Source: an uncultured Verrucomicrobiota bacterium (GTDB lineage: Bacteria > Verrucomicrobiota > Verrucomicrobiia > Palsa-1439). Taken from it: a DNA stretch of 45,549 nt. The notes beneath the pieces were generated by a model that was given only the letters and a program-made list of their open reading frames with translations, was not told where the DNA came from and made no database searches. This document shows, piece by piece, positions 4,773 to 42,689 of the stretch. Numbering within the stretch: the first letter of the stretch is position 1; every line of letters begins with the position of its first letter. The stretch lies in assembly GCA_903825435.1 (NCBI GenBank), contig CAIKAP010000129.1:1-45549 (forward strand), in the 5' to 3' direction. Both the position numbers and the translations under genes were made by a program.

Positions 4773-5815
4773 GCGACGCGCTCGACACTTTCACCGCGGG
4801 CACGTCCGCGACGGTGGACGTGGCGCAGATCGAACGCCAGTTGCGCGTGCTCTGGCAACAGGGCGGCCAGACTGTGTCGCGCGCCTGCCTGTTCAACCTC
4901 GTTGTCTGGTGCGAATCAGAAACCGACCGCGACCGGGTCGGCGCGACGATCAGCGAGTTGACCAGCCGTCATCCGTGCCGGGCCATCGTCCTGTTCGCCG
5001 AGCCGGCGCGCGCTGAATCGTCGCTCGACGCTTCCATCGCCGCGCACTGCCACCTTGCCGGCGGCGGACGTAAACAGGTTTGCTGCGAACAAATTTCGCT
5101 GCACGCGGGCGGCGCTGCGGTGTCGCAACTGGCGCCAACGGTACTCTCGTTGCTGGAAGGTGATCTGCCAACGGTGTTGTGGTGGCGCGGCAACTTCCTA
5201 GCCCGGGCAGACCAGTTTACCCGGATGCGCGGCGTTGCGGACCGGATCGTTTTCGATTCGGCGCAGTGGCCGGAGCCGGAATGCTGGTTGGCGATGCTCG
5301 CCGCCGAAATCCACGAACCGCCTCCGCCGGTGTTCGCCGACTTGAACTGGTTGCGGCTGAAGCTGTGGCGGAAATTGACGACGGATTGTTTCGACGAGCC
5401 GGCGGTCCGCGCCGTGCTGCCGCAATTGTGCCGCGTGACGGTGTCGCACGGCGGCGGCGCGGGTGCGCGAATGCGGGCGTTGTTGTACGCCGGCTGGGTG
5501 GCGATGGAATTGGGCTGGCCGGCCAAAATCGCGATGGAACGCGTCATGTTCCGGAAATGTTCCGGCCACGATGTCGCCGATGTCGGCATCGAGTCGGTTG
5601 AGTTGGAGGCGGACGGCGCGCTGGTCCGGCTGCAAAAAGATTTTGCCGAGCACACGGCGACGGCGGTGGCGACGTTGCCGGAGCTGTGCAGTCTGCCGCG
5701 CAAACAGGCGTTCGCGCCGTTGACGGAGGCGATGTTGATGTCGCAGGAGTTCGACCACGCGGCGCCGCACACGGCGTACGCGCGGGCGCTGATGTTGGCG
5801 TCGATTCTGGCGTAG
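4769..5815 (+). CDS. opcA: glucose-6-phosphate dehydrogenase assembly protein OpcA
   Basis: OpcA is an allosteric/assembly partner of Zwf, known from cyanobacteria and actinobacteria and present elsewhere next to zwf. The 348-residue product shows the family block LPTVLWWRG and the typical C-terminal sugar-phosphate-dehydrogenase-assembly region. The GTG at 4769 overlaps the zwf TGA and is the most likely start; a GTG at 4757 is an alternative. A copy of the dispersed 27-bp repeat (5540-5566) is read in frame here and contributes the residues MFRKCSG, apparently without breaking the gene. No further pentose phosphate gene follows. Confidence 0.88.
   Translation: MSDALDTFTAGTSATVDVAQIERQLRVLWQQGGQTVSRACLFNLVVWCESETDRDRVGATISELTSRHPCRAIVLFAEPARAESSLDASIAAHCHLAGGGRKQVCCEQISLHAGGAAVSQLAPTVLSLLEGDLPTVLWWRGNFLARADQFTRMRGVADRIVFDSAQWPEPECWLAMLAAEIHEPPPPVFADLNWLRLKLWRKLTTDCFDEPAVRAVLPQLCRVTVSHGGGAGARMRALLYAGWVAMELGWPAKIAMERVMFRKCSGHDVADVGIESVELEADGALVRLQKDFAEHTATAVATLPELCSLPRKQAFAPLTEAMLMSQEFDHAAPHTAYARALMLASILA
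5540..5566 (+). repeat. dispersed 27-bp repeat, copy inside opcA
   Basis: This 27-base sequence is identical to those at 33201-33227 and 39522-39548. Its core is TGTTCCGG-AAA-TGTTCCGG (5547-5565). Unlike the other two copies it lies within a coding region. Confidence 0.85.
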
Positions 5816-18976: not shown

Positions 18977-19128
18977 CGCCGGGCCTCCTTCCACGGGAGC
19001 GAACAGCCGGCGTACACGCCACAACCGCCACAGCCAGTGCGGCCGGAACATCTCCGGAACATGAGCTTGACGCCGATCCAGCCGAGCGCGCCGAGCAGGA
19101 GAACGCGGATAAACGACTTCCGGGTCAC
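18973..19128 (-). CDS. 51-residue Cys-rich membrane peptide
   Basis: A GTG at 19126-19128 overlaps the stop of the NHL-type gene (GTGA). The 51-codon frame ends in a TGA overlapping the ATG of the Tat ferredoxin (ATGA). The peptide has one membrane segment (about 8-20) and a tail with four cysteines (27, 33, 36, 42) in the pattern C-x5-C-x2-C-x5-C. This could bind an Fe-S cluster or another metal. I do not recognise a family. The two exact overlaps are strong evidence that it is a real gene. A dispersed TGTTCCGG-N3-TGTTCCGG repeat lies within it and encodes part of the tail. Confidence 0.65.
   Translation of the reverse strand: MTRKSFIRVLLLGALGWIGVKLMFRRCSGRTGCGGCGVYAGCSLPWKEARR
19043..19061 (-). 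repeat. TGTTCCGG-N3-TGTTCCGG motif within the small Cys-rich gene
   Basis: On the minus strand the two octamers are separated by AGA. It differs by one base from the core of the identical 27-bp copies. Confidence 0.75.
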
Positions 19129-23070: not shown

Positions 23071-26000
23071 TCAGACTGTTTCCACCAATTCCGGTTTCGC
23101 GCGGTCGGCGACCGGCGCGTTGCCGTTCCCGTTCCCGCCGGCGAATAATTGCCGGATCATGACGAGGAACTGGTCGGTCTCGAAATGATGCAGTTGGATC
23201 GCGCGGGCCGGGCACTCCGAAGCGCAGATGCCGCAGCCCATGCACTTCGCGGCCTCGATCTGGCCTTTGCCGTCCTTGTTGCAGAATGGCGCGGAGTACG
23301 GACAGACCGTGACGCAGGTCATGCACGAGATGCATTTCTGCTGCGTGACGTACGAGACTTGCGCGCTGACATCGAGTTGCGTCTTGGACAACACCGTTGC
23401 GGCGCGCGCGGCGGCGGCGCGAGCCTGGGAAATATTTTCGTCGATGAATTTCGGCGAATGCGCCAGGCCGCACAGGAAAATGCCTTCGGTCGCAAAATCC
23501 ACCGGCCGCAGTTTCATGTGGGCTTCCACGTAAAACCCGTCGGCGTTGAGCGGCACCTTGAGCATGTCGGACACGCGTTTGTTGTTCGGCAAATCCACCT
23601 CGATGCCGGTGCTCAACACGAGATTGTCGGCCTCGATCTGGAGCGGCTCGGGGAAATCAGGGCTTTGCAACGTAACGACCAACCCGCCGGTGTCGCTCAC
23701 CTGCGGCGGATTTTCCGGCGCGTAACGGATGAACACCACCCCGGCTTCGCGCGCTTGCTTGTAATACAACTCACGGAAACCATACGTCCGCACATCGCGA
23801 TAGAGCACGAAAACGTTCGCGTCGGGATCTTGCTGTTTGATCGCGAGCGCGTTCTTGACAGCCAGCGAACAACAGATCCGGCTGCAATACGCGTGCTGCT
23901 CGTTGCGCGAGCCAACGCACTGGATCATCACCACGTTCTGGCCCTTGGCCGGATACGCGCGGTCGTGCAACTGCTTCGCCAACTCCACCTGCGTCAACAC
24001 ACCCGCCGCGCGGCCGTACAGGAAATCCTTCGTCTTCGCCTCGCGCGCGCCGGTGGCCACGACAACGGCGCCGCCGGTAATCTCGTTTGTCTGACCGGCT
24101 TTGCGCAGCGTCAGGTGGAATTTGCCAACGTGGCCTTTGACGCCGGCCACTTCGGTTTCGAGATACAACTTGATCTGCGGATGCGTCTCGACTTGCCGAA
24201 TGAGCGCGCCGGTAAACTCGCTGAGGTCCGGATGCTCGAACGTTCCCGTAATCTCGTGCAATGTCCCGCCGAGCCGGTTCGATTGTTCGATCAGGTGCAC
24301 CGGGAATCCCTGGTTCGCCAGCGCCAGCGCCGCGGTCATGCCGCTCAAGCCGCCGCCGATGACCAACCCGGTCTGCTCCACCTTCAACGTCCCGCCTTCC
24401 AGCGGCGACAACTCGCGCGCCCGCGCGATCGCCATCTTCACCAGTTCCACCGCCTTGTCGGTCGCCGTCTGCGGCGCCGCCGAGTGCACCCACGAACACT
24501 GGTCGCGGATATTGGCCAGCTCGAACAAATACGGATTCAGCCCCGCTTCGCGCAACGTCTCGCGGAACAACGGCTCGTGCGTGCGCGGCGTGCACGACGC
24601 CACCACGATCCGGTTCAGCCGGTGTTCGTGGATCATGTCCTTGATGTTCGACAAGCTCGTGTCGGAACAGGTGAACATCGTGTGCGTCGCCAACACCACG
24701 CCCGGCTGTTGCGCGATTCGTTCCACGACCTGCTCGACGTTCACCACCGACGCGATGTTCATGCCGCAGTGACAGACAAACACACCGACGCGCGGCGGTT
24801 CATCCGCGACATCGTGCTCGATCGGATAACTCTTCTTCGTGACCAGCGAATTGCGCGCCGGGGCCAGCAACTCCATCGCCATCGACGCCGCCGCGCTCGC
24901 CTGCACCACCGTTTCGGGAATGTCCTTCGGTTCCTGGAACGCGCCGCCGACAAACACGCCGGGCCGCGACGTGACCAACGGCGCCAGCCGGTCGGTCTTG
25001 CAGAAACCAAAATCGTTCAACTCGATGCCGAGCCGGGCCGCCGACCGCGTCAACGAGTCCGGCGGTTCCATGCCGACCGACAACACGACCAGATCGAACT
25101 CACGTTGCAGAAGCTGACCGTCGCCGTCGAGGAACTGCACGCGCAAATCCCGGCTGCCGGGAATCTGGATGATCCGCGACGGGATGCTCTTGACGTAGTG
25201 AATGTGTTTCTGCGCCTTCGCCCGTTCGTAATATTGGTCAAAATCTTTGCCGTGCGCGCGAATGTCCATGTAGAAAATCGTCGCATCCAATCCGGTCACG
25301 TGATCGCCGGCGACCAACGCCTGTTTCGTCGCCATCATGCAACAGATCGACGAACAATAATCGTGGCCGCTCGCCGCGTCGCGCGAGCCGACGCATTGAA
25401 TCCACGCGATCCGCTTCGCTTCCCGGCCATCCGACAACCGGATGACGTGCCCCTCGAACGGCCCCGCCGCCGAGAGCATCCGCTCGAACTGCACGCTGGT
25501 GACGACGTTTGGATACCGGCCGTACCCGAACTCGCCTTTCCGCCCGGCGTCGAATTCCTTGAACCCCGGCGTCAACACGACCGCGCCGACGTCGAGCTTG
25601 ACCGACACCTCGCGCATCGAATGGTTGATGGCCTGCTGCTCGCACTTCTCGACGCACTGATTACATTCCGAGCAGAGCGCGCAATTCAAGCATCGCTCGG
25701 CTTCGGCCAGCGCCTGTTCCTCGGTCAATCCCTTTTCGACTTCGTCAAAATTGTTTTTCCGGCTCGCCGGAGCTAATTCTTCCGGCCGCGACCGGCTCTT
25801 CTTGGCGAGTTTTTCCGTCTCCGGCAGCATTTCTTCCGGAATCGGCTGCACCGTGCTCTCAAACCGGTCCGCCAACATGTCCTTGCCGGTCAGGTAACGC
25901 GTGATGGACTCCGCCACACGCTTGCCGGCCGCAACGGCATCAATCACCGACAACGGACCGGACGCGTTGTCGCCGCCCGCGAACACACCGGCGATGGATG

Positions 26001-27570
26001 TTTGGCCGGTCACCGGGTCGGCCTTGAAACAGCCGCGCGCGTTCTCGACCGGGATGTGCTTCACCAAATCTTCGTCCGTCATCTGGCCGATGGCGACGAT
26101 GATCTGGTCCACTTCCACCGTGGTCAAATCGTTTTCGTCGAAGGCGGGACTGAAACGTTTCTGCTCGTCGAACACGCGCGTGCACCGCTTGAGTTCGATG
26201 CCGGTCACGGAACCGTTACCGAGAATGCGTTTCGGTCCCCAGCTATTGCGAATTTTGATATTCTCCGCCAGTGTCGCTTCGACTTCTTCCTTGTACGCCG
26301 GCATCTCGTGGCGCGCTTCGAGCGACACCATCTCGACGCTCTGCGCGCCGAGCCGCAACGCCGTCCGCGCCACGTCCACCGCCACGTTGCCGCCGCCAAT
26401 CACCAACACGCGCCCCTTGACCGCCGGCTTCTGCGGCGACGCCGCGTCGCGCAAAAATTCCACGCCGTGCAGGACGTTCTGCTTGTCTTCGCCGTCAATG
26501 CGCAGCTTCCGGCTCTTGTGCGCGCCGGCGGAAATCAGGATCGCGTCGTTTTGGTCGCGCAACGCCTGGAACGTGATGTCCCGGCCAACCCGGCAGTTGT
26601 AAACAAGCGTCACGCCCTTGCGCCGGATCAACTCGACTTCGTGGTCCAGCACTTTCTTCGGCAGCCGGTATTCCGGAATTCCGTACCGGAGCATCCCGCC
26701 CGCCGCCGACTGCGCTTCGTACACCGTCACCGCAAACCCGGCATCCGCCAAATCCGCCGCCGCCGTCAACCCGGCCGGCCCGGCGCCAATGATCGCGACT
26801 TTTTTCGCGTCCGCGGCCGGTTTCTTTTCTTCCGGTAACGTCAGTTGACCGGCCGCAAGCAGTGCGGCTTCCTGATCGGACGCAAATCGTTTCAGCAACC
26901 GGATCGCGATCGCTTCGTCGGCGGTGCCACGCGTGCAGACCGACTCGCACGGATGCGTGCAAATCCGGCCGCAGATGCCGGAGAGCGGATTGCGCTGGCG
27001 AACCAGCGCGACCGCCTTGAGATATTCCTTTTTCTTGATGAGCTGGACGTAGCCCTGGACGTTGACGCGCGCCGGGCATTTCACTTTGCAGGGCGCGTGG
27101 CCTTGCTTGAGAATGCCGAAAATGTTCGGCGTCGCTTGCGCGTAGAGTTTGGCGATGCCTTTGCGCGTGCCGAGGCACCGGTTGAATTCATCCGGCACAT
27201 CGACGGGACAAACTTGCGTGCATTGGCTGCAACCGGTGCACTTGTCCTCGTCCACAAACCGCGGATGGCGTTTGACCGTCGCCTGAAAATGTCCCGGCGT
27301 GCCCTGCAAATCCGTCAGCTCGGAGAGCGTAAGGATTTTGACGTTCAGGTTGCGGGCGCACTCGACGAGTTTTGGCGAAACGATGCACGTCGCGCAGTCG
27401 CCGGTCGGGAAAGTTTTGTCGAGGTGGGCCATCATGCCGCCGATGGCGCCGTCGCGCTCGACGAGATACACCTTGAAGCCGCTGTTGGCCAGGTCCAGCG
27501 ACGCCTGCACGCCGGCGATGCCGCCGCCTTGCACCAGTACCGCGCCAATTTTTTTATTGATGGTGGTCAT
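23071..27570 (-). CDS. hdrA: HdrA-GltD-HdrA fusion, flavin/Fe-S electron-transfer hub
   Basis: The product has 1499 residues. Residues 1-150 begin an HdrA (FAD loop GGGIAG, CTGCSQC ferredoxin motif at 111-117). A complete GltD/NfnB-like NADPH-dehydrogenase module is inserted at about 155-625 (CKVKCPARVN, dinucleotide loops GAGPAG at 262 and GGGNVA at 392). A CLNCALCSEC cluster site and the rest of the first HdrA follow to about 905. A second HdrA (about 925-1499) has its own FAD loop (GGGLSG near 1072) and C-terminal CISCMTC and CMGCGIC ferredoxin motifs. HdrA proteins bifurcate or transfer electrons between NAD(P)H, ferredoxin and HdrBC/MvhD. No Shine-Dalgarno is evident. The 5' end and leader are duplicated at 37339-37465. 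Confidence 0.93.
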   Translation of the reverse strand: MTTINKKIGAVLVQGGGIAGVQASLDLANSGFKVYLVERDGAIGGMMAHLDKTFPTGDCATCIVSPKLVECARNLNVKILTLSELTDLQGTPGHFQATVKRHPRFVDEDKCTGCSQCTQVCPVDVPDEFNRCLGTRKGIAKLYAQATPNIFGILKQGHAPCKVKCPARVNVQGYVQLIKKKEYLKAVALVRQRNPLSGICGRICTHPCESVCTRGTADEAIAIRLLKRFASDQEAALLAAGQLTLPEEKKPAADAKKVAIIGAGPAGLTAAADLADAGFAVTVYEAQSAAGGMLRYGIPEYRLPKKVLDHEVELIRRKGVTLVYNCRVGRDITFQALRDQNDAILISAGAHKSRKLRIDGEDKQNVLHGVEFLRDAASPQKPAVKGRVLVIGGGNVAVDVARTALRLGAQSVEMVSLEARHEMPAYKEEVEATLAENIKIRNSWGPKRILGNGSVTGIELKRCTRVFDEQKRFSPAFDENDLTTVEVDQIIVAIGQMTDEDLVKHIPVENARGCFKADPVTGQTSIAGVFAGGDNASGPLSVIDAVAAGKRVAESITRYLTGKDMLADRFESTVQPIPEEMLPETEKLAKKSRSRPEELAPASRKNNFDEVEKGLTEEQALAEAERCLNCALCSECNQCVEKCEQQAINHSMREVSVKLDVGAVVLTPGFKEFDAGRKGEFGYGRYPNVVTSVQFERMLSAAGPFEGHVIRLSDGREAKRIAWIQCVGSRDAASGHDYCSSICCMMATKQALVAGDHVTGLDATIFYMDIRAHGKDFDQYYERAKAQKHIHYVKSIPSRIIQIPGSRDLRVQFLDGDGQLLQREFDLVVLSVGMEPPDSLTRSAARLGIELNDFGFCKTDRLAPLVTSRPGVFVGGAFQEPKDIPETVVQASAAASMAMELLAPARNSLVTKKSYPIEHDVADEPPRVGVFVCHCGMNIASVVNVEQVVERIAQQPGVVLATHTMFTCSDTSLSNIKDMIHEHRLNRIVVASCTPRTHEPLFRETLREAGLNPYLFELANIRDQCSWVHSAAPQTATDKAVELVKMAIARARELSPLEGGTLKVEQTGLVIGGGLSGMTAALALANQGFPVHLIEQSNRLGGTLHEITGTFEHPDLSEFTGALIRQVETHPQIKLYLETEVAGVKGHVGKFHLTLRKAGQTNEITGGAVVVATGAREAKTKDFLYGRAAGVLTQVELAKQLHDRAYPAKGQNVVMIQCVGSRNEQHAYCSRICCSLAVKNALAIKQQDPDANVFVLYRDVRTYGFRELYYKQAREAGVVFIRYAPENPPQVSDTGGLVVTLQSPDFPEPLQIEADNLVLSTGIEVDLPNNKRVSDMLKVPLNADGFYVEAHMKLRPVDFATEGIFLCGLAHSPKFIDENISQARAAAARAATVLSKTQLDVSAQVSYVTQQKCISCMTCVTVCPYSAPFCNKDGKGQIEAAKCMGCGICASECPARAIQLHHFETDQFLVMIRQLFAGGNGNGNAPVADRAKPELVETV

Positions 27571-27645: not shown

Positions 27646-28341
27646 TTACTTCGCCGGTGTCGTTGGCGCGGGCGGAGTTGGCTTCTTGCCGCCGCCGCCG
27701 CGATCCACGATCACGCGCGCGGACAGATAACCCGCGTAAAATTCCGGGTTCGTCCGCTTGAATTGCGTCATCAATTTGTCGAGACGACGGCGCAGAATCG
27801 TCAGGAGCGTCGCCGTCAACCCTTGCACCGTGCCCGTTTGTTTGGATTGCTCGACGACCGCGTCGCGCGGCTCCGTCTTCACCTTGCCGAATGACGCCGT
27901 CAGGTCATCCAATTCCGTCACGTCATCCTGCGCGATGCCGTAATCGGCGAGCGCGGCAAGATTCGCCGTCGCCAAGTCCGAATACGTTTTCCCGGCGGCG
28001 ATCAAGTCTTGCGCCGAAAGTTTGTCCAACGTCGGCAGCGTCGTCTCCGCCTGTGCCACCAATTTCGGATTCTGCGTCGCCTCGCCATAGGCGACCAACT
28101 GATCCGCGATCAACAAAATCTGATCCTCAAAATCGTGCCGCACCGAAAGCTTGTCTTCCCCCGCGCCTTTGCGGGCGGACTGCTGTTTCTTGTCCGCGTC
28201 CGCCATTCCGGTGAGCGTCGTGTTCACGTCGTTCACCGCGTCGGCGATGGCTTTCACGCCGCTCCAGATCGTTTTGTTCTTGTCCATGTACACAGACACG
28301 GACGCGCCCATATCGCTGACGTTGAGTTGTTTTCTGTTCAT
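27646..28341 (-). CDS. hypothetical helical protein of 231 residues
   Basis: Not recognised. The sequence from the ATG at 28341 is mostly alpha-helical and polar without signal peptide or membrane segment. It has a Gly/Lys/Pro-rich C-terminal tail (GGGGKKPTPPAPTTP). The same frame remains open upstream through the 21-bp repeat array up to 28887, but the chosen ATG begins the first non-repetitive sequence. It lies upstream of hdrA with 75 bp between; no functional link is evident. Confidence 0.65.
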   Translation of the reverse strand: MNRKQLNVSDMGASVSVYMDKNKTIWSGVKAIADAVNDVNTTLTGMADADKKQQSARKGAGEDKLSVRHDFEDQILLIADQLVAYGEATQNPKLVAQAETTLPTLDKLSAQDLIAAGKTYSDLATANLAALADYGIAQDDVTELDDLTASFGKVKTEPRDAVVEQSKQTGTVQGLTATLLTILRRRLDKLMTQFKRTNPEFYAGYLSARVIVDRGGGGKKPTPPAPTTPAK

Positions 28342-28403
28342 AATGCTCGCGATAATAAAAGTCCTCACCGCGTTGTCAACATCGGAATGGCGGAACATCA
28401 CAG

Positions 28404-28884
28404 CGGCGCTCGCAACGGTGACGCCACCGTTGGCGACGGCGATGCCGCCGTTCGCAACTGGAACACCACCGTCCGCGACGGCGACAGCGGCACCGGCGAA
28501 AAAATCAGCACCGTCCGCAACTTGACCCGCGCACCGCGCGACGGTGACGCCACCGTTGGCAACAGGAACACCACCGTCCGCGAACTGGACAGAGGTGTCC
28601 GCGACACCGACAGCGGCGTCCGCGCCGCCGACATCGCAACCGCGATGGTGACAGTGCCGTCCGCGACGGTGACACTGCCCTCCGCGCCGATGAAAGCACG
28701 TCCGCGACGGTGACAGTACCGTCCGCGCCGATGAAAGTGGTGTCCGCGAGGGCGACAGCACCGTCCGCGACGCCGACAGTGCGCTCCGCGCCGCCACCAG
28801 CCTATTCCGCGACCGCGAAAGCGCCGTCCGCGACGACGAAAGCCCCTCCCGCGAAACCGTAAACGGCGCCCGCGAAGCCGTCTG
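28404..28884. repeat. degenerate 21-bp tandem array, about 23 units
   Basis: Units in strict 21-base register from 28404 follow a consensus near CACCGTCCGCGACGGCGACAG; two or three units are 20 bases long. One plus-strand frame reads seven-residue repeats of the type TTVRDGD. The minus strand reads heptads such as VADGGVP and, after a shift, LSPSRTV. The 20-base units break both frames, arguing against one continuous protein. There are no spacers between units, so it is not CRISPR. It begins 63 bp upstream of the hypothetical gene at 27646-28341. Confidence 0.85.
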
Positions 28885-29115
28885 CACATGTTGATTGACA
28901 GGGATTTACGGGGATTTGCCGAAGCAAAGCGGCAGGCATCAAATTTCCGACCATTTCGACCACCGGACTACAAATAGCCGGAGGTCTGGCCCATCCAAAC
29001 GACCTAATCGAAGGAGAGGCGGCAATTCCCATCGGCACTGCACCGCAGGCAGGTTCGTTGGGTCTCGCGCAGTCGGCTTCGACAAGTGAGGCTGCAAGAA
29101 TTTGGTTTGACGAAA
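28885..29115. other. intergenic leader region before nikR, no gene seen
   Basis: Between the 21-bp array and the nikR operator lie about 230 bases. I found no cobalamin-riboswitch core, no NiCo-riboswitch pattern and no credible ORF. A minus-strand frame (28802-29146) crosses it but ends in the repeat array and shows no family features. The nikR promoter should lie here. Confidence 0.4.
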
Positions 29116-33154: not shown

Positions 33155-33227
33155 TGTTCCGGTTTTGTTCCGGCCTTCGTGCTGGTGGTGAAATCTGCTC
33201 CGCGTCATGTTCCGGAAATGTTCCGGC
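33155..33227 (+). repeat. two dispersed TGTTCCGG-N3-TGTTCCGG copies between nikMN and hdrB
   Basis: In the 147-bp convergent gap one copy with TTT spacing lies at 33155-33173. An exact copy of the 27-bp repeat lies at 33201-33227 (core 33208-33226, AAA spacing). No other element was recognised in this gap. Confidence 0.85.
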
Positions 33228-33252: not shown

Positions 33253-34092
33253 TCATTGCACTTTCCCCAGAACGTTCGTGGCCGGCACCATCAGTTTTTC
33301 AAAACCGAGTTCGCCGGCGCTGTAGCCGAGGCACAATCCAAGCAACTGCGTGAGATAAACCACCGGCATCTGATATTTTTTCGCCATGTCCGCCTGCCGC
33401 AGATCGAGGTTGATCTGGCACATCGGGCAACTGACCACCACGCAGTCCGCCCCGGCCTGCTCCGCCATGTCCAAAATTGATTCCGAAAGATTGACCACCA
33501 CGTCGGTGCGCGACAACGACAACCCGCCGCCGCAACACTCCACCTTGCCCGGCCAGTCGAGGCTCTGGCCGCCCATCGCCGTCACGAGCCGGTCGAGCGA
33601 CTGCGGATTCTCCGCGTCATCAAATTTCATCACGCCCGGCGGACGCACGAGCAGGCAGCCGTAGTAACACGCCACCTTCAGTCCGTTCAGCGAACGCTTG
33701 AACGATTGCTTGATCGCCGGCAGGCCGACGTCTTCGAGCAACACTTCGATCAGATGTCGGACCTTGACCGAGCCGTCGTAATCCTGGTCGAGCGCCGCGC
33801 GCAGCTCGGCGTGGTTGGTGACTTCGTGGTTGGCCGCTTTCATCCGGTTGTAGCAGGCGGCGCAATTCACCAGCATGTCCAGCTTCATGTCCCGGACTTT
33901 GACCAGATTCGCCGCGGCCAGCGACACCGCAAGCTGCCGGTCGGTTTGGTGCGCCGCCGTCGCGCCGCAACACGTCCAGCCCGGCGGCTCTTGCAACTCG
34001 ATGCCGAGCGACTTCGCGACCGCGAGCGTGGACAGGTTCATGTCGCGCGCCGTGGATTCGGCGGAACAGCCCGGATAATACGCGTACTTCAT
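33253..34092 (-). CDS. hdrB: heterodisulfide reductase-like subunit B
   Basis: The product has 279 residues and two CCG domains: YYPGCSAES...GWTCCGAT and, after CYYGCLLVRP, KVECCGGG and CPMCQINLD. These bind the non-cubane [4Fe-4S] clusters of HdrB. In bacteria without coenzyme M such HdrBC pairs serve other acceptors, here probably the MetFV module. The ATG at 34092 overlaps the hdrC stop. Confidence 0.95.
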   Translation of the reverse strand: MKYAYYPGCSAESTARDMNLSTLAVAKSLGIELQEPPGWTCCGATAAHQTDRQLAVSLAAANLVKVRDMKLDMLVNCAACYNRMKAANHEVTNHAELRAALDQDYDGSVKVRHLIEVLLEDVGLPAIKQSFKRSLNGLKVACYYGCLLVRPPGVMKFDDAENPQSLDRLVTAMGGQSLDWPGKVECCGGGLSLSRTDVVVNLSESILDMAEQAGADCVVVSCPMCQINLDLRQADMAKKYQMPVVYLTQLLGLCLGYSAGELGFEKLMVPATNVLGKVQ

Positions 34093-34646
34093 GCTTTCCC
34101 GCCTTTGGTCTTCGCAAAAATTCGTTTTACGGTTTTGGTGTCCGCGCCGCGCGGCGGCAACAGCGCGAGCTTGCCTTTCTTGAGCATCGTCGGAAATTTT
34201 TCCGTGTCGGCCATCAACTTGCCGGTGCCGAGCTTGTAGGCGGCGACCATGCCGAGTTCGTAGGTGCGGCCGAATTTCTCGACCGTCTTGAGGAACGCCC
34301 GGTTGAACAACGGCACATTGCCGGCCGGCGCGGGCACGCCTTTCGCAATCGCCAGTTGCCGCAACGCGTCCATCACCGCCGCGACATCAATCCCCATCGG
34401 GCAACGCGCCGAACAGGTGCCGCACGACGCGCACGTCCAGATCAAATCGCTCTCCAACAACTCCGCCCCGGCGCCGAGGTGCAACCGCCGCATCACTTCC
34501 GACGGCCGGGTCTTGGTCAGCTTCGCCACGGCGCAACCGCTGGAGCATTTCTTGCATTGGAAACAGACGCTCAGGTCCACGCCGCAGAGTTCCTTGATCG
34601 CGCGTTTCAGGCCGGGACCGGATTTGTTTTTCTTGATGGTGATCAC
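34089..34646 (-). CDS. hdrC: heterodisulfide reductase-like subunit C
   Basis: The product has 185 residues and two [4Fe-4S] motifs, CFQCKKCSSGC and CASCGTCSARCP, passing electrons from HdrA to HdrB. It is coupled to hdrB and starts 15 bp after the amidotransferase-type gltB gene, a linkage that ties HdrBC to the glutamate-synthase-like subunits rather than to hdrA, which lies elsewhere in the window. Confidence 0.95.
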   Translation of the reverse strand: MITIKKNKSGPGLKRAIKELCGVDLSVCFQCKKCSSGCAVAKLTKTRPSEVMRRLHLGAGAELLESDLIWTCASCGTCSARCPMGIDVAAVMDALRQLAIAKGVPAPAGNVPLFNRAFLKTVEKFGRTYELGMVAAYKLGTGKLMADTEKFPTMLKKGKLALLPPRGADTKTVKRIFAKTKGGKA

Positions 34647-34661
34647 AATGATTTCCTCAAG

Positions 34662-37277
34662 CTATTTGGCGGCTAACTCCATGGCTTCGGCGGTCACCTC
34701 GTCGGCTTCGTCCTCGACGATGGCGGCGACGCTGCCGGGCACGACTTTGCGGTACACCTGCGCCGGCCGGCGGTGCCGGCCTTTGTGCGTCAATAGTTGC
34801 GCGATGGTGATGCCGAACAGCCGTTCGTTTTCTTCCAGGTACGGCCGGATCAATTCCCAATCCGCGTCGGTGACGCGGGCGAACTTGCCGCCGTTCAACT
34901 GTTCCTCGACCAGACTCCGGTCCGGGTCGCGGACAAAAATCGCGCCGCCCGACGCGAGCGAAAACAGATTGCTGCCGGGATACGGATCGGCCAACGAAAT
35001 CAAGTGTCCATCTTCAGCCAGCCGGACGCCGTTCAAAATCACAAACCCGCCGCCCTGATGCGGATCACCGGCCATGAACGACTCCGCGAGGAAGTCGAGA
35101 CACGTGCCGTTGATGACGACTTTGGGGCGACCGACCGAATTGATCAACGGCCGCCCGGCCGCGTTGCCGAGCACGTACACCGAGCCGCCTTTCGCGCCGT
35201 ACATGAACGTCTGGCCGACGTCGCCGTGAATGACGAGCTTGCCGCGTTTGATGATCTGACCGAGTTGATCCTGCGCGTTGCCGTGCACCGTGATCGTCAG
35301 GCCGTCAATGCCGGACGCGAGATAATCGCCGCTGCTGCCGTACACTTCGATGTTCACGTCGTCGGTGTCCGGTCCCAAACCGCAGCCGATGTAGCGCTGG
35401 CCGATGCAATTGAAGCTGACGAACCGCCGCCAGCCTTTCATGTACGCGTCCACCAGCAACTCCGCGTCGCAGTCGCTGCCTTCCGGCGCGAACTTCGCGG
35501 CGTCGATCACCAGCGTCGTTTCGCCTTCCAGCGGTTTGCGCAACTGTTGCCGGGTCGCGAAATCAATCAGCCGGAATGCGCCCGGGCGCGCGTCGGTCGC
35601 GCCGATGTTGGGCAGGCTGGCGAACAGCCGGTTCAACTCGGTGCGCACGACGTGGAGCACGTGGCTCCGGCGCTTGGCGCCGGTCGGGTAACGTTTGTCG
35701 TTGAGTTGCGTCAGCACGTCAATCGCCGTGGCCGTCTTCGCCGGATCCTTGCCCGCGTCGGCGATTTGCCGGCTGGCGGCGCGGAATTCGTCGAACGTCT
35801 GTTGCGGAAGCTGGTCGCGCAACGATTCAAACGCCGGAATGCCGGTAGCGGTGCCGGTAAAGGTGACTTGTTCCTTGGAAAAATCGCAGGTCTCGGTGCC
35901 GCCGGGGATCGGGACCTGTTTGCCGAACTTGTCGGCGCAGGCGATCCGGTATTTCCCGGCGGAATTTTTCTGCAAATTGAAAATGAATGCGCCACCGTCG
36001 TCGTAGCTGCCGCCGCGGGCGTTCCAGTACCGGTCGGCGACGGGACAAATTCGGATGTCGTCCTTCGACAAGCTGTGGAGCGTGGCGTCAATGGCCTGTT
36101 TTTCTGAGGCGATCAGGCCGACCTGGACTTCGCCGTCGCAGAAGGCGAACACTTGCGGGCGCAACATCGCGGTGTCGGTGATGCCCATCAACTGGAATTG
36201 TTTTTCGCGGACGAGATTGCGGGCGATGATGAAAAACCACGGGCCGTCCGGCGAGCCGTGGATGTGCGTGGCCTGGATGGCCCGGTAAATCTTCTGCCGT
36301 TCCGGGTCGAGCCGGTCGAAGTCGAGTTCGGTCGTCGGCGCGAGCGCCTCGATGATGTGTTCGAGCGGATAATGGTACGTCCGGCTCAGCAGATCGAAGA
36401 GCAACGCCGAAACTTCCGTGTCGGTGAGGAACTGCGGATAGATGTGGCGCTGCTTGAGATATTCGCTGACGGAATGATAGTTCGCGAAGTCGCCGTTGTG
36501 CACGAGCGCCATGTCGATCGCGGTGAACGGATGCGCGCCGCCGGGATGCCAGACGCGGCCTTTGGTCGGGAAGCGTTGGTGCGCGATCCATTCATGCGCG
36601 CAAAATTCCTCGATCTTGTAATACTTCACGATGGCTTCGGCAAAGCCGACCACCTTGAGGATCATGATGTCGCGGCCAGCCGACAACACGAACGCGCGTT
36701 TGTCGCCGAGCGACGCGTAATATTTCTGGTTGAGATTGAAACTGTTTTGGTTGATGAACTCGGCCTCGGCGGCGTCGCGGTCGAGTTTTTCAAAATGATT
36801 CTTCGCGACGAACGTGTCGAGCACTGCCGGTTTGACGCGCACAAAGTACCGGCAGACATCCGGCGGCAACACTTCGAGGCCGGGCACGGATTTCCAGTCG
36901 TCCACCTTGTCGAGTTGCGCCGAGGCGGTGATGTCGAAGTACGGTTTGATGAACTCCGCCTCGATTTCGGGACGAACTTTGGTGTCGATGAACGCGATGT
37001 GCAGCAGCCAATTCGTGTCGAGCACTTCCCGGCTGACGCCGAGCTGTGCCGGCACGAGACCGACCGCCGCGATGCCGCCGCCTTTGCCGTTGCCGCGGTT
37101 GTGCATTTGGCGGGACGGCTCATAAATATGTTTGCCCGGCACCGGCACGCTGCAACAGAAACCCACCACGCCGCAGCCACCTTCCTCAGCTTCCTTCTTC
37201 AGGTGCGAGGAGTGGTTGAGCTGTTCGGCCAGCCGCTGTCGGGAAGCGGCCAGGCGTTTGATCAATTCGGCGTTCAT
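34662..37277 (-). CDS. split glutamate synthase subunit: glutamine amidotransferase plus GXGXG domain
   Basis: The product has 871 residues. A class II glutamine amidotransferase domain has its nucleophile Cys35 in EEGGCGVVGF; a 34-residue leader must be processed for activity. It continues with HQRFPTKGRVWHPGGAHPF and DTEVSALLFDLL. A C-terminal GXGXG beta-helix (about 640-810) contains repeats such as GSSGDYLASG and GDVGQTFMYGAKGG. The FMN/synthase domain is absent and is supplied by the separate genes at 39773-42689. In Archaea-like split GltB these parts are also encoded separately. The ATG overlaps the stop of the 42-codon chimera (ATGA), echoing the ancestral junction of the FMN subunit with this gene. 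Confidence 0.88.
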   Translation of the reverse strand: MNAELIKRLAASRQRLAEQLNHSSHLKKEAEEGGCGVVGFCCSVPVPGKHIYEPSRQMHNRGNGKGGGIAAVGLVPAQLGVSREVLDTNWLLHIAFIDTKVRPEIEAEFIKPYFDITASAQLDKVDDWKSVPGLEVLPPDVCRYFVRVKPAVLDTFVAKNHFEKLDRDAAEAEFINQNSFNLNQKYYASLGDKRAFVLSAGRDIMILKVVGFAEAIVKYYKIEEFCAHEWIAHQRFPTKGRVWHPGGAHPFTAIDMALVHNGDFANYHSVSEYLKQRHIYPQFLTDTEVSALLFDLLSRTYHYPLEHIIEALAPTTELDFDRLDPERQKIYRAIQATHIHGSPDGPWFFIIARNLVREKQFQLMGITDTAMLRPQVFAFCDGEVQVGLIASEKQAIDATLHSLSKDDIRICPVADRYWNARGGSYDDGGAFIFNLQKNSAGKYRIACADKFGKQVPIPGGTETCDFSKEQVTFTGTATGIPAFESLRDQLPQQTFDEFRAASRQIADAGKDPAKTATAIDVLTQLNDKRYPTGAKRRSHVLHVVRTELNRLFASLPNIGATDARPGAFRLIDFATRQQLRKPLEGETTLVIDAAKFAPEGSDCDAELLVDAYMKGWRRFVSFNCIGQRYIGCGLGPDTDDVNIEVYGSSGDYLASGIDGLTITVHGNAQDQLGQIIKRGKLVIHGDVGQTFMYGAKGGSVYVLGNAAGRPLINSVGRPKVVINGTCLDFLAESFMAGDPHQGGGFVILNGVRLAEDGHLISLADPYPGSNLFSLASGGAIFVRDPDRSLVEEQLNGGKFARVTDADWELIRPYLEENERLFGITIAQLLTHKGRHRRPAQVYRKVVPGSVAAIVEDEADEVTAEAMELAAK

Positions 37278-37402
37278 GCGGTTGTGTAATCCAAGTGCAT
37301 CATCAGATCGGTGCGTCCGCGCAACTCGGCGACGCTGGGCACGCCGGCGACGCCGCCGCCTTGCACCAGTACCGCGCCAATTTTTTTATTGATGGTGGTC
37401 AT
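37274..37402 (-). pseudogene. chimeric 42-codon ORF: hdrA head fused to gltB FMN-subunit tail
   Basis: From the ATG at 37400-37402 the first 20 residues equal the HdrA N-terminus (one substitution, Ile to Val). The remainder, from VPSVAELRGR to its end, equals the C-terminus of the FMN subunit encoded at 39773-41326. The switch falls at an 8-base sequence, GCACGCCG, present in both parent genes. It looks like a deletion scar that removed everything between an hdrA copy and a gltB FMN-subunit copy. It may still serve as a leader peptide for translation of the next gene. Confidence 0.85.
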
Positions 37403-37465
37403 CGGAAATAAGTACTTCGTTATTACAACTGGCTGACTGACGAATTGTGGCGAGGTATTACGGGT
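37339..37465 (-). repeat. hdrA head plus leader, copy 2
   Basis: This is the counterpart of 27507-27633 at a constant offset of 9832 bases. It supplies the start codon and leader of the chimeric ORF and therefore probably the promoter of the gltB-hdrCB operon. Confidence 0.9.
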
Positions 37466-37483
37466 ATTCTTGTCGATCTTCTC

Positions 37484-37520
37484 AAAAAGACACCGGCGCT
37501 ATCCTTCTGGTGCCGGTGCT
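37484..37520 (-). terminator. intrinsic terminator of the catalase-bacterioferritin operon
   Basis: CACCGGC (37491-37497) pairs with GCCGGTG (37512-37518); on the minus strand the stem is followed by TCTTTTT. It overlaps the last codons and stop of the bacterioferritin gene. Confidence 0.7.
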
Positions 37521-37993
37521 TTGGGCGTTTTTTCGAAGGACTGGAGTGCGAGGTAACTTGGGCCAAACCGCTTAATATTTTCCAGTTGCTTGTCGAACTG
37601 GTCGAAATGCCGTTCCTCGTCGTTGACGAGTGCTTCGAACAATTGCTTGGAGGCCGCGTCGGCGTTCTGACCGCATTTGATGGCGGACTGGTTGTAGCTG
37701 GTGACGCCGGCTTGTTCCATCGCGGCGGCTTTGACAAGGATCTTCTGGGCTTCGGTGATCGCTTCGACGGGACCGGCGGCCAGCATTTTGACATCGCCCT
37801 TCAAGAACAGGATGCGCTCGGCCAACCGCTCGACGTGCCCCATTTCTTCAATGGCAATCTTCTTGAACATCAAGGCCAACGGCGCAAAGCCTTGGTCGTC
37901 CAAGTGGAAGTGCCAATACATGTATTGGTGAACCGCTTGGAGTTCGTCGGCCACGCCTTGGTTCAACAGTTCAATGCTTTTCTTTGCGTCCAT
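37499..37993 (-). CDS. bfr: bacterioferritin-like ferritin
   Basis: The product has 164 residues. It is a four-helix ferritin with ferroxidase-type residues spread over ELQAVHQYMYWHFHL, EEMGHVERLAERI and NDEERHFDQFD. The Glu/ExxH pattern matches bacterioferritin; a heme Met cannot be assigned with certainty. It stores iron and lowers Fenton chemistry. An AGGAG ribosome site precedes the ATG at 37993. It lies 26 bp downstream of catalase, forming an oxidative-stress pair that ends at its own terminator. A longer frame to 38659 only shadows catalase. Confidence 0.88.
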   Translation of the reverse strand: MDAKKSIELLNQGVADELQAVHQYMYWHFHLDDQGFAPLALMFKKIAIEEMGHVERLAERILFLKGDVKMLAAGPVEAITEAQKILVKAAAMEQAGVTSYNQSAIKCGQNADAASKQLFEALVNDEERHFDQFDKQLENIKRFGPSYLALQSFEKTPKAPAPEG

Positions 37994-38019: not shown

Positions 38020-39465
38020 TTATAGCTTGATGCCAATCTTCTTCAAGGCTTCCTTCACGCCGTTGCCGTAAGCCGGGTCGGCTTTGAGGCAGTTGGCGAT
38101 GTGCCGTAACTGTATCTCGCGCGTCGCGCCGCCAATGGAACGGGCAGTGTTCTCGAAGAGGAGCCTCTGCTGCGCCTTGCTCATCAGCCGGAACAGTTTG
38201 CCGGGCTGCGTGTAGTAATCGGTGTCCTCGCGGTGGTTCCAGTGGTCGGCTGCGCCCGACAACGGGAGCGGCGGTTCGGCAAATTCCGGCTGCTGTTGCC
38301 ATTCGCCGAAACTGTTCGGCTCGTAGCCGAGCGTGCTGCCGTGGTTGCCGTCCACCCGCATCGCGCCGTCGCGATGATAGCTGTGAAACGGACAACGGGC
38401 GGCGTTGACGGGGATCAGGTGGTGGTTGACGCCGAGCCGGTAACGCTGGGCATCTCCGTAGGAGAACAACCGGCCCTGCAACATCTTGTCGGGCGAGAAG
38501 CCGATGCCGGGGACGATGCTGGCGGGGTTGAACGCGGACTGTTCCACTTCGGCGAAGTAGTTTTCGGGGTTGCGATTCAGTTCGACCACGCCGACTTCCA
38601 TCAGCGGATAATCCTTGTGAAACCAGACTTTGGTGAGGTCGAACGGATGATACGGGCACGTCGCTGCTTCCTTTTCCGGCATAACTTGGATGAACATCGT
38701 CCAGCGCGGGAAGTCTTTCTTCTCGATGCTTTCGTAGAGGTCGCGTTGGTGGCTCTCGCGATCCTTGGCAATGATCGCCTCGGCCTGTTGGTCGGTCAGG
38801 TTCTTAATGCCTTGTTGCGAGCGGAAGTGGAACTTGACCCAGAACCGTTCGTTCTTGGCGTTGATGAGGCTAAACGTGTGGCTGCCGAACGCGTGCATGT
38901 GCCGGTAACTCGCGGGAATCCCGCGGTCGCTCATGACAATGGTGACTTGGTGCAACGCCTCCGGCAACGATGTCCAGAAATCCCAATTATTGAGCGCGCT
39001 GCGCAGGTTGGTGCGGGGGTCGCGCTTGACGGCGTGGTTGAGGTCCGGGAATTTCAACGGGTCGCGCAGGAAAAATACCGGCGTGTTGTTGCCCACCAGA
39101 TCCCAATTCCCCTCGTCGGTATAGAACTTCATCGCCACGCCCCGGATGTCGCGCTCCGCGTCCGCCGCGCCGCGCTCACCGGCCACCGTGGAGAACCGGA
39201 TAAACATGTCGGTCTTCTTGCCCACCTTCGAAAACATCTTGGCCTTGGTGTAACGCGTAATGTCGTTTGTCACCTTGAACGTCCCATAAGCGCCCGATCC
39301 CTTGGCGTGCATCCGCCGTTCGGGAATAACCTCCCGGTCAAAATGGGCGAGCTTCTCCAGAAACCAGACATCCTGTAGCAACGCCGGCCCGCGCGGCCCG
39401 GCGGTCATCGTATTCTGGTTGTCTGGCACCGGAGCGCCGGCATTGGTGGTAAGTTTTTTCTTCAT
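38020..39465 (-). CDS. katA: monofunctional heme catalase (clade 3 type)
   Basis: The product has 481 residues, the small-subunit length. The distal His lies in [13 protein letters not shown], the Asn in [15 protein letters not shown], and the proximal heme Tyr in [14 protein letters not shown]. It dismutates hydrogen peroxide in the cytosol. AAAGGAAC precedes the ATG at 39465. The gene is surrounded by duplicated fragments of the Hdr/glutamate-synthase locus, so it arrived with, or was exposed by, the rearrangement. Confidence 0.96.
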
Positions 39466-39521
39466 GACATTGTTCCTTTGATGGAGCGAACGATACCAAA
39501 GCGAGCCATTCGGAGCAAGCC

Positions 39522-39548
39522 CGCGTCATGTTCCGGAAATGTTCCGGC
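39522..39548 (+). repeat. dispersed 27-bp repeat upstream of catalase
   Basis: Identical over 27 bases to 5540-5566 and 33201-33227. It lies about 57 bp upstream of the catalase start, between it and the gltB remnant. Confidence 0.85.
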
Positions 39549-39596
39549 GACGAAAAAAGAAGTCAGGAGACAGGAGACAGAATCGGCAGTCGCCAT

Positions 39597-39776
39597 GTTT
39601 CCGCCGTCGTTGAAACTTTGGCGCGACACGCCGGAAATGTGCCGGCCCGCGACTGGCTCGCTGCAACAGAACCCGACGCCGCCGCAGCCGCCTTCCTCGG
39701 CTTCCTTGCGAATGGTTGCCGGAACGTCGAGCCGTTTCCGGGAATCAGTGAGCCGTTGAATCAATTCGCGGTTCAT
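39597..39776 (-). pseudogene. truncated head of a second amidotransferase-type gltB gene
   Basis: The ATG at 39776 overlaps the FMN-subunit stop (ATGA). The first about 60 codons are homologous to the intact gene at 34662-37277: MN-ELI-RL, then KEAEEGGCG-VGFCCS and SRQ. Similarity then stops and the frame runs into repeat-bearing intergenic sequence. The nucleotide divergence from the intact copy is clear, so it is a paralogous head and not a fresh duplicate. Confidence 0.8.
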
Positions 39777-41326
39777 GAGTTTGTGTAATCCAAGTGCATC
39801 ATCAAATCGGTGCGTCCGCGCAGTTCGGCGACGCTGGGCACGCCGAGCCGCTGCAAAATACCGACCAAAACCTTGCGCCACGCGCTATACATATTAATGA
39901 GGCGTTGCGTACCCCAATCAATTTCCATTTTCGCGGCCAACTCGGGATCGGTCGTGGCGATGCCGCGCGGACAGCCGCGGCCGCTCTCGCACCGGCTGCA
40001 ACGCACGCAACCGAGCGCGACCATTTCCGACGTGCCGATGACCACGCCATCCGCGCCAAGCGCGATGGCCTTGGCGACGTCGTACGCCGAACGGATGCCG
40101 CCGCTGGCGATGAGCGTGACCTTGTCGCGCACGCCCTCAGCGGCGAGAAATTGGTGAACCTTGCCGATGGCGTACTCGATCGGCATCGCGATATTCTTCT
40201 TCGCAATGTCCGGCGCCGCGCCCGTGCCGCCGTAACCGCCGTCAATGTGCACGATGTGTGTGCCGGCGGAATAACTGCCCACCGCGACCATGTCCACGTC
40301 CGTCGGCGTCGAAACTTTCGTCGAGATCAACGCGCGCCGGTTGACGTGCTTGATCCAGTCGATGTGTTTCATGTGATCTTCGATGGAATAGACGCTGTGA
40401 AACGGGAACGGCGAGAAGAGCGAAATGCCGAGCACCGCTTCGCGCATCCGGGAAACCGCGATTGTGTTCTTGTCGCCGAGCAAATGTCCGCCGAGGCCGG
40501 GTTTCGCGCCTTGCGCGTATTTGAATTCGACAATCGGCACGCGCTGGATCGTTTCCTCGCGCACGCCGAACAGCCCCGTCGCCACTTGCGTGATGACGTG
40601 GTCGTCATACGGCCGCATCCGTTCCATGTAACCGCCCTCGCCGGTGCAGGTGAACGTGTTGAACGCCACCGCCGCGCGGGCCTTGGAAAGTTGGGTGACG
40701 TTGCTGACCGAGCCGAACGACATCCCGCCGCCGTACCACGGCACATCAATCTTGATCTTTGGCCGGCCATCGCCGCGTTTGTTCAGCAGGACGGTGGTGT
40801 CAATTTCGCTGGCATCGAGCTTGACCGGCGGTTCTTTCGGGAACTTGAACCGGAGCTTGTCGAATCCGCCGCCGGAATTGCCGGTCTCGTAATTGTAATC
40901 ATACGCCGCCGGGGGCACGTCGCCGGTCTCGGCCATTTTCCACGTCGCCAAAATCAAATCACTCGACCACCGGCAATCGCCGAGCACCGAATACATCGGA
41001 TTTTCCCGGACCTGCAACGCGCCATTCGGGCACTGCGCCACGCAATACCGGTCCGTGTTTTCGCAGCTCGGCCCGATGCAGAGGTGATGGCGCGGTTCGC
41101 CGTAATATTTGTAGCCGGGCAGGTGGACGTGGACTTCGTGCGCGCAGACTTCGCCGCATTTCCCGCACCGCTTGCACTCGGGACCGCGATGGACGAGGTA
41201 CTTCGCGATCTCGTTGCGATACCGCGACGGCGCCGGGCGCACGAGCCGCTCGACATGTTCCTGCGGCACGCGCGTTTTCAGCGTCTTTTCGGGCAGCAAT
41301 TGTTCAAGGCTTCGTTCGGGTGCCAT
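39773..41326 (-). CDS. split glutamate synthase FMN subunit with ferredoxin domain
   Basis: The product has 517 residues. An N-terminal ferredoxin-like region (CKRCGKCGEVC, then CENTDRYCVAQCP) precedes the FMN-binding glutamate synthase barrel. The barrel shows GGGMSFGSVS, a GGYGGTGAAP loop, ASGGIRSAYDVAKAIALGAD and the [3Fe-4S] motif CVRCSRCESGRGCPRGIAT. It would make glutamate from 2-oxoglutarate with ammonia tunnelled from the amidotransferase subunit. The ATG at 41326 overlaps the preceding paralogue by 23 bp. Its natural downstream partner is broken here and the intact one is 2.5 kb away. Confidence 0.9.
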   Translation of the reverse strand: MAPERSLEQLLPEKTLKTRVPQEHVERLVRPAPSRYRNEIAKYLVHRGPECKRCGKCGEVCAHEVHVHLPGYKYYGEPRHHLCIGPSCENTDRYCVAQCPNGALQVRENPMYSVLGDCRWSSDLILATWKMAETGDVPPAAYDYNYETGNSGGGFDKLRFKFPKEPPVKLDASEIDTTVLLNKRGDGRPKIKIDVPWYGGGMSFGSVSNVTQLSKARAAVAFNTFTCTGEGGYMERMRPYDDHVITQVATGLFGVREETIQRVPIVEFKYAQGAKPGLGGHLLGDKNTIAVSRMREAVLGISLFSPFPFHSVYSIEDHMKHIDWIKHVNRRALISTKVSTPTDVDMVAVGSYSAGTHIVHIDGGYGGTGAAPDIAKKNIAMPIEYAIGKVHQFLAAEGVRDKVTLIASGGIRSAYDVAKAIALGADGVVIGTSEMVALGCVRCSRCESGRGCPRGIATTDPELAAKMEIDWGTQRLINMYSAWRKVLVGILQRLGVPSVAELRGRTDLMMHLDYTNS

Positions 41327-42689
41327 AAAGTTTGCCGAAGGTTTCTTCCTCAAGTTGCTCGAAAAACATCGCGCGCCCGACGTCACCACGCAGCCGCCGC
41401 GCCTCGCGCATGCCCATCGCGCCCATCAGCTCGATCAACTGATCGTGCCAGGCCGCGATCAAATTCGTCATCCGACCCACGCCGAAACTGAAATCAATGT
41501 TCTCCAGCTTCGCCGGACAGGTCGTGCCGGGTTTGCAGCTCGCACAGAGATGACATTCCAACGCGATCAGCAACGGCAGATTGATCGTCACGAGGTCAGC
41601 GCCGCAAATGATCGCCTTCGCCATGTGCTCCGGCAACGCGATGCCGCCGCCGGCCATCAGCGTGATTTCGTCCCGACCGCCTTTTTCGATGAGCGCGGTG
41701 TGAATCTGCCGGAGCATCTCCTTCAAAAACCGCGGCTGCGACGCGTTGAGTTCGTCGCCGTTGGCGTCGGCCACGACGTGAATCGTCTCGACGTCGGGCA
41801 ACCCCGCCAGTTCGATGGCGCGCCCAATGCCGGCATTCGTCAACTCGACGCGAATCGCCACGACAATTTCCGGATGAATCCGCTTGAGCGCCTGAATGCG
41901 TTCCGCGACGGCCGGACCGTCAGCGATTTCCACCAGCCGCGTCTTTCGCAACAGTTCGTCCGGCACCGCCGGGCTGTCCGGGCTGAGGTAGAACGCGATG
42001 TTGGTCAGATGTTCTGCCTTCGCCGGCCGGTAACGCGCATCCATCAACGCGATGATGCCGGTCGCGGCGGCGGCGTGTTCGACAATCGGGTCAACCTGCG
42101 GCAGCGTGTGCGCCGGCGAACTCAAATCAATGATCAACGGCATCGGCAGCGACACCAGCGGCGGCAATTGGTTGCCGTTCTGCGTCAGGAACGGCAGTTT
42201 GCGGCCGATGTCCACCGATGTGCTGATGTATTCGCGGCCGTGAATCCCGTCGCGGGTCGGACGGACGATTTCCGACATGTCCGTCCACATCGCATCAAAC
42301 CCGTGCCCAGAGAACGGTCCCCGGTAGCCCGCGCCTGAGACCGGAATTTTCGCCGTCTCGGCCTGGAGCCAGGTGGTCTTGATGATGTCGGGCTTCCAAT
42401 ACCGGTTGCCGAGACGCTCGTATTCCGGGTTGATCGACAGGCGCAACAATCCCTTCGTGCAATCCTGCACGCACGAGAAACAGCCCATGCAATCGAAGAA
42501 CAGCGCCTCGACTTCGCCCATGCTGCGAATGTAATCCGCTTCTTGACGGTAGCGGTCATAGACGCAGGCTTTCTTCACGCAGTTGTGGCACCGGGCACAG
42601 TCTTCGCGCCAGTCCACGACACCGTGTTTCCCGATGCGCGGTCGGCGCGGCGGCACCGGCTTCGTCTTGATGTGATATTTCTCCGGCAT
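41304..42689 (-). CDS. second FMN-domain glutamate-synthase-like ferredoxin fusion
   Basis: The product has 461 residues. It opens with two Cys groups (CARCHNCVKKAC and CMGCFSCVQDC), then an FMN-type barrel (LMAGGGIALPEHMAKAIICGAD) and a CHLCASCKPGTTCP cluster site. It is related to but clearly diverged from the 517-residue subunit; loops such as the GGYGGTG motif are not conserved. It may therefore be an electron-transfer paralogue rather than a synthase. It begins 3 bp after metF and overlaps the next gene by 23 bp, placing it firmly in the metF operon. Confidence 0.85.
   Translation of the reverse strand: MPEKYHIKTKPVPPRRPRIGKHGVVDWREDCARCHNCVKKACVYDRYRQEADYIRSMGEVEALFFDCMGCFSCVQDCTKGLLRLSINPEYERLGNRYWKPDIIKTTWLQAETAKIPVSGAGYRGPFSGHGFDAMWTDMSEIVRPTRDGIHGREYISTSVDIGRKLPFLTQNGNQLPPLVSLPMPLIIDLSSPAHTLPQVDPIVEHAAAATGIIALMDARYRPAKAEHLTNIAFYLSPDSPAVPDELLRKTRLVEIADGPAVAERIQALKRIHPEIVVAIRVELTNAGIGRAIELAGLPDVETIHVVADANGDELNASQPRFLKEMLRQIHTALIEKGGRDEITLMAGGGIALPEHMAKAIICGADLVTINLPLLIALECHLCASCKPGTTCPAKLENIDFSFGVGRMTNLIAAWHDQLIELMGAMGMREARRLRGDVGRAMFFEQLEEETFGKLYGTRTKP

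Follow-up and report, generated by a model that had tools for sequence, protein, structure and literature searches.

In Escherichia coli, tandem duplications that capture a promoter and show GC-rich microhomology at the joint have been documented (PMC11111574), where other work on capture by duplication is cited (Li and Bock 2019; Anderson and Roth 1978). For spontaneous joints recovered in culture, the deduced overlap cut-off was 11 bp for true duplications and 8 bp for deletions (PMC3411829). Gene clusters of the MetFV-HdrABC-MvhD type, along with HdrL, an HdrA/glutamate synthase fusion, have been described in Desulfobacterium autotrophicum (PMC2702500).

The stretch of DNA analysed here (45,549 nucleotides, hereafter the window) comes from an uncultured Verrucomicrobiota bacterium and carries a cluster that is akin to those of D. 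autotrophicum in that an HdrA with a GltD-like part is found beside MvhD, and that also includes MTHFR, HdrB and HdrC. Unlike the D. autotrophicum clusters, it also encodes two FMN-domain glutamate-synthase-like subunits together with an amidotransferase/GXGXG protein, and it is split in three. Directly in front of the amidotransferase gene lies a short ORF that combines the head of hdrA with the tail of one of the FMN-domain subunits, and we put the probability that this ORF arose as the new junction of an ancient tandem duplication, which spanned the FMN2 tail through the hdrA head, rather than as the product of a deletion, at about 50%. Under the duplication reading, the locus would parallel the E. 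coli captures, in that a duplication joint with a short GC-rich overlap would provide a gene lacking a start region with an active one. Unlike the E. coli cases, the joint in the window is old, comes from a fragmented genome assembly and is known from sequence alone, and it carries a start codon and 20 codons besides the leader. The event belongs to a known kind, ordinary as such but neat in its details.

Gene order in the window and in its relatives

Read along the minus strand, the genes are an MvhD/FlpD-domain gene (called metV here, a label given from position only), MTHFR, FMN1, FMN2, gltB', catalase, a ferritin-like gene, the chimeric ORF, gltB, hdrC and hdrB; the intact hdrA lies beyond a 5.7-kb stretch that includes genes on the opposite strand. 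The main features of the cluster are the following.

41304-42689, minus strand: FMN1, second glutamate-synthase-like subunit (Pfam PF01645)
39773-41389, minus strand: FMN2, glutamate-synthase FMN-domain subunit, the tail parent (Pfam PF01645, E 5e-89)
39603-39776, minus strand: gltB', truncated and diverged gltB head of about 58 codons, directly behind the intact FMN2
38020-39465, minus strand: catalase (Pfam PF00199), inserted between FMN2 and gltB
37499-37993, minus strand: ferritin/bacterioferritin-like gene (Pfam PF00210), inserted between FMN2 and gltB
37474-37525, minus strand: terminator-like hairpin that overlaps the stop codon of the ferritin gene and is followed by UUUUU (fold -15.4 kcal/mol, z -2.6)
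34662-37277, minus strand: gltB, amidotransferase and GXGXG protein, intact
34089-34646, minus strand: hdrC-like gene
33253-34092, minus strand: hdrB-like gene
23071-27570, minus strand: intact hdrA, HdrA with an internal GltD-like domain, the head parent, 5.7 kb from hdrB

The hdrC and hdrB genes are present once each. In gltB', the reading frame (39462-39776) has no stop codon until it reaches catalase, where stop and start form an ATGA overlap like the one between the chimeric ORF and gltB. The catalase and ferritin genes were considered as a conserved travelling pair, a candidate that was set aside because the catalase relatives in the class have no adjoining ferritin gene in the fetched flanks. 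A dispersed repeat, CCGGAACATTTCCGGAACATG, is found in the window at 39527-39547, 33206-33226, 5545-5565 and 19043-19063, and at 48 places in the genome with at most 2 mismatches, compared with 0 for the reversed control; copies of it sit at both places where the cluster is broken, one where gltB' ends and the other immediately after hdrB.

Few genomes of the class have the cluster (3 of 384, with that of the window counted in), and a search of one other genome from the same genus did not detect it. In the loci L008 (genome G020), L016 (G283) and L011, the gene order is metV-metF-FMN1-FMN2-gltB-hdrC-hdrB-hdrA, in one direction and without a foreign gene, and the same order is seen in L013 and L083 as far as these loci reach. 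In the Desulfobacterota loci L009 and L010, the cluster is circularly permuted (gltB-hdrC-hdrB-hdrA-mvhD-metV-metF-FMN1-FMN2), so that hdrA is upstream of FMN2, but gltB is at the far upstream end.

An in-frame joint between the hdrA head and the FMN2 tail

The joint is made up of the following features.

37402-37274, minus strand: chimeric leader ORF of 42 codons, in which hdrA codons 1-20 are in frame with the last 22 codons of FMN2 (sequence and alignments)
37339-37346, minus strand: 8-bp overlap CGGCGTGC, common to hdrA, FMN2 and the joint (alignment)
37403-37469, minus strand: copy of the hdrA leader, about 67 nt, in which 9 of the first 50 nt differ and the last part is identical

The ORF (37402-37274, minus strand) reads MTTINKKIGAVLVQGGGVAG up to the division between its two parts and VPSVAELRGRTDLMMHLDYTTA from there to the stop codon, with the product MTTINKKIGAVLVQGGGVAGVPSVAELRGRTDLMMHLDYTTA; the stop codon is part of an ATGA overlap with the start of gltB (37277-37274). 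The shared 8 bp (GCACGCCG on the plus strand) are in frame in both parents, and the probability of an overlap of at least 8 bp at a random hdrA/FMN2 joint is 4e-4, so that the match is beyond chance. The hdrA arm, which consists of the leader and 20 codons (37466-37339), aligns with 27634-27507 at 93% identity over 128 bp (E 7e-50), and the FMN2 arm is identical to 39845-39774 at 67 of 72 nt (93%). The original prediction, made from the sequence, of an in-frame fusion of an hdrA head to an FMN-subunit tail at an 8-bp microhomology is borne out by these alignments to both parents.

The joint is present in a single copy in the 3.43-Mb genome, where its other matches are its two parents and the gltB' stretch only. 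It differs from the intact parents at 10 positions in the hdrA arm and at 5 in the FMN2 arm. An assembly chimera of the two parental loci is unlikely given that both arms carry mutations absent from either parent, and these private mutations argue against a simple read chimera of the hdrA and FMN2 loci. The leader was also considered as a dispersed repeat, and this was rejected because the genome has just these two copies and no further one turned up among the 384 class genomes.

Origin of the joint

The scenario that we favor starts from an ancestral cluster with the order FMN1-FMN2-gltB-hdrC-hdrB-(leader)hdrA. A head-to-tail duplication from about codon 516 of FMN2 to about codon 20 of hdrA, through the overlap of 8 bp, would have set the leader of hdrA, with the start codon and the first 20 codons, in frame ahead of the 22 final codons of FMN2, with a second gltB-hdrC-hdrB behind them. 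The first copy would later have lost the greater part of its content, namely gltB' past its first 58 or so codons, hdrC' and hdrB', the catalase-ferritin pair would have come to occupy its place, and hdrA would have been parted from hdrB by the 5.7-kb insertion. The leader is absent from L008, where hdrA directly follows hdrB, as well as from L016 and the other relatives, and therefore would have been gained before the joint formed.

Several observations point to such a duplication. In the intact relatives, FMN2 is upstream of hdrA, so that an hdrA head fused to an FMN2 tail and followed by gltB-hdrC-hdrB is the direct product of one tandem duplication, for which a second whole hdrA or FMN2 is unnecessary. 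At the joint, the downstream end of the presumed unit meets its upstream end without a change of orientation, and parts of the unit flank the joint on either side: gltB' follows the intact FMN2, and gltB follows the joint; gltB' is the expected remnant of the first copy of the duplication. Against it stands that an intermediate was not found in any genome and that hdrC' and hdrB' have left no trace.

An identical product would result if the whole cluster had been duplicated and a deletion had then run from codon 20 of the upstream hdrA' to about codon 516 of the downstream FMN2'', with the ends fused at the same 8 bp. The size of the overlap lends mild support to this possibility because it falls within the screening cut-offs of the culture study (7-9 bp) and fits the deletions in that study better (PMC3411829), and the permuted clusters of L009 and L010 testify to reordering elsewhere, as whole-cluster duplication with loss would give. 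Nevertheless, this route appears doubtful: compared with the direct joint, it takes an additional event and a duplication of greater length, whereas the genome contains only one full FMN2, and there is no second mvhD, metV, metF or FMN1, nor the rest of hdrA', next to the joint. The requirement for a prior duplication of the whole cluster, together with the lack of any trace of the extra genes near the joint, is why tandem duplication is preferred. The original prediction had interpreted the ORF as a deletion scar, left where a second hdrA once stood before a second FMN subunit; of this interpretation, the fusion, the microhomology and the ATGA overlap hold, whereas the deletion is possible but not the simplest explanation. 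The undeleted arrangement that it suggested seeking in relatives, with hdrA before FMN2-gltB, is not represented among the loci from 384 class genomes, 388 phylum genomes and the genome contigs.

A single young tandem duplication predicts equal divergence of all duplicated parts, and this is not what is observed, which makes the joint a likely but not a proven one. The copies of the hdrA head differ at 1 of 76 positions compared with 9 of 50 in the leader (p 0.001), and those of the FMN2 tail at 5 of 72 compared with 59 of 181 for the gltB heads (p 1e-5). The FMN2 tails of the joint and of the intact FMN2 are sisters in the tree (98/93) and, in the alignment, share MM in place of LM, VPSV in place of LRSV and the loss of 5 codons, which indicates that the tail was copied inside this lineage. 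For the gltB heads, a sister relationship is not clear (site patterns 11 to 4): gltB' has 58% amino acid identity to residues 1-62 of gltB, its DNA is 67% identical to gltB and 73% to L016, the gltB head groups with L008 rather than with gltB' (87/98), and the p-AU for gltB and gltB' as one clade is 0.053. Given the grouping with L008, tandem duplication would have to be complemented by free decay of gltB', conversion between the FMN2 tails or replacement of one gltB copy, each of which could be sufficient.

Another way to account for the joint is that the insertion of the catalase-ferritin pair was repaired with a templated copy, about 130 bp long, of the leader and head of hdrA, along with a local repeat of the FMN2 tail and the gltB head. 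The hdrA patch is indeed short, no remnant of hdrC' or hdrB' is left where the first copy would have been, and the leader homology has a sharp boundary at 37466-37469, immediately after the ferritin terminator, and another at the hdrA locus, immediately after the stop codon of the ORF preceding hdrA. Such a repair is unlikely, however, in that the repeat of FMN2 tail and gltB head, about 250 bp, that flanks the insert on either side needs a separate explanation, and so does the very unequal divergence of these repeats. It is quite improbable that the present gltB-hdrC-hdrB was acquired by recombination from an L008-like cluster of a second lineage, joined at the conserved FMN2 tail, with gltB' as the remnant of the native gltB, because, although the gltB head is 87% identical to L008 compared with 67% to gltB' and groups with L008 in the tree, the rest of gltB is about equally identical to L008 and L016, the chimera tail is the sister of the window's own FMN2 tail, and the hdrA head would still be left to explain.

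Expression signals and proposed translational coupling

The hairpin with UUUUU at the end of the ferritin gene makes read-through from FMN2 to gltB doubtful; this hairpin is not among the hits of a simple consensus scan. The gltB gene has no good Shine-Dalgarno sequence (the best has only -3.1 kcal/mol), and the stop codon of the chimeric ORF overlaps the gltB start, as would be the case for a coupling leader. The ATGA overlap, which had been taken to couple the fused ORF to the amidotransferase gene, is present at 37277 and is conserved in L008, L011 and L013; in L016, there is a gap of about 166 bp instead. The joint probably was kept because gltB, with no Shine-Dalgarno sequence of its own, would depend on translation ending at the ATGA. 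There is no good Shine-Dalgarno sequence at the hdrA start either, so that initiation there must be of a non-Shine-Dalgarno kind, and the start of the chimera has identical upstream bases. A scan for promoters of the sigma-70 type yielded no consensus in either copy of the leader. The possibility that the leader is a riboswitch or another structured RNA was discarded because it has no Rfam match and folds no better than shuffled sequences.

Located behind the ferritin terminator, the chimeric ORF would give gltB-hdrC-hdrB the transcription and translation start of hdrA, and, as it carries the hdrA start region, both detached halves of the complex would start from the same leader. Judging from this arrangement, the locus is a plausible candidate for promoter capture, in which the leader may supply the expression signals that would have been cut off by the catalase-ferritin insertion. 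The proposal in the original prediction that the hdrA promoter probably drives gltB-hdrC-hdrB at present is a reasonable one. More tentatively, the chimeric ORF might be a maintained regulatory adapter, with the same leader and start controlling two separated parts of one Hdr/glutamate-synthase-like complex, hdrA and gltB-hdrC-hdrB, and thus restoring co-regulation after insertions had split the operon, a possibility that we hold to be rather unlikely. If true, this would be a natural case of a split operon regaining common control by a single rearrangement, which would bring in a start region as well as the in-frame stop that coupled translation requires. At the level of sequence interpretation, the locus calls for caution because head-to-tail gene fusions can mark duplication joints instead of deletions.

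The long ORF that precedes the intact hdrA (27646-28887, minus strand) contains 21-bp tandem repeats (28389-28894 in the window).
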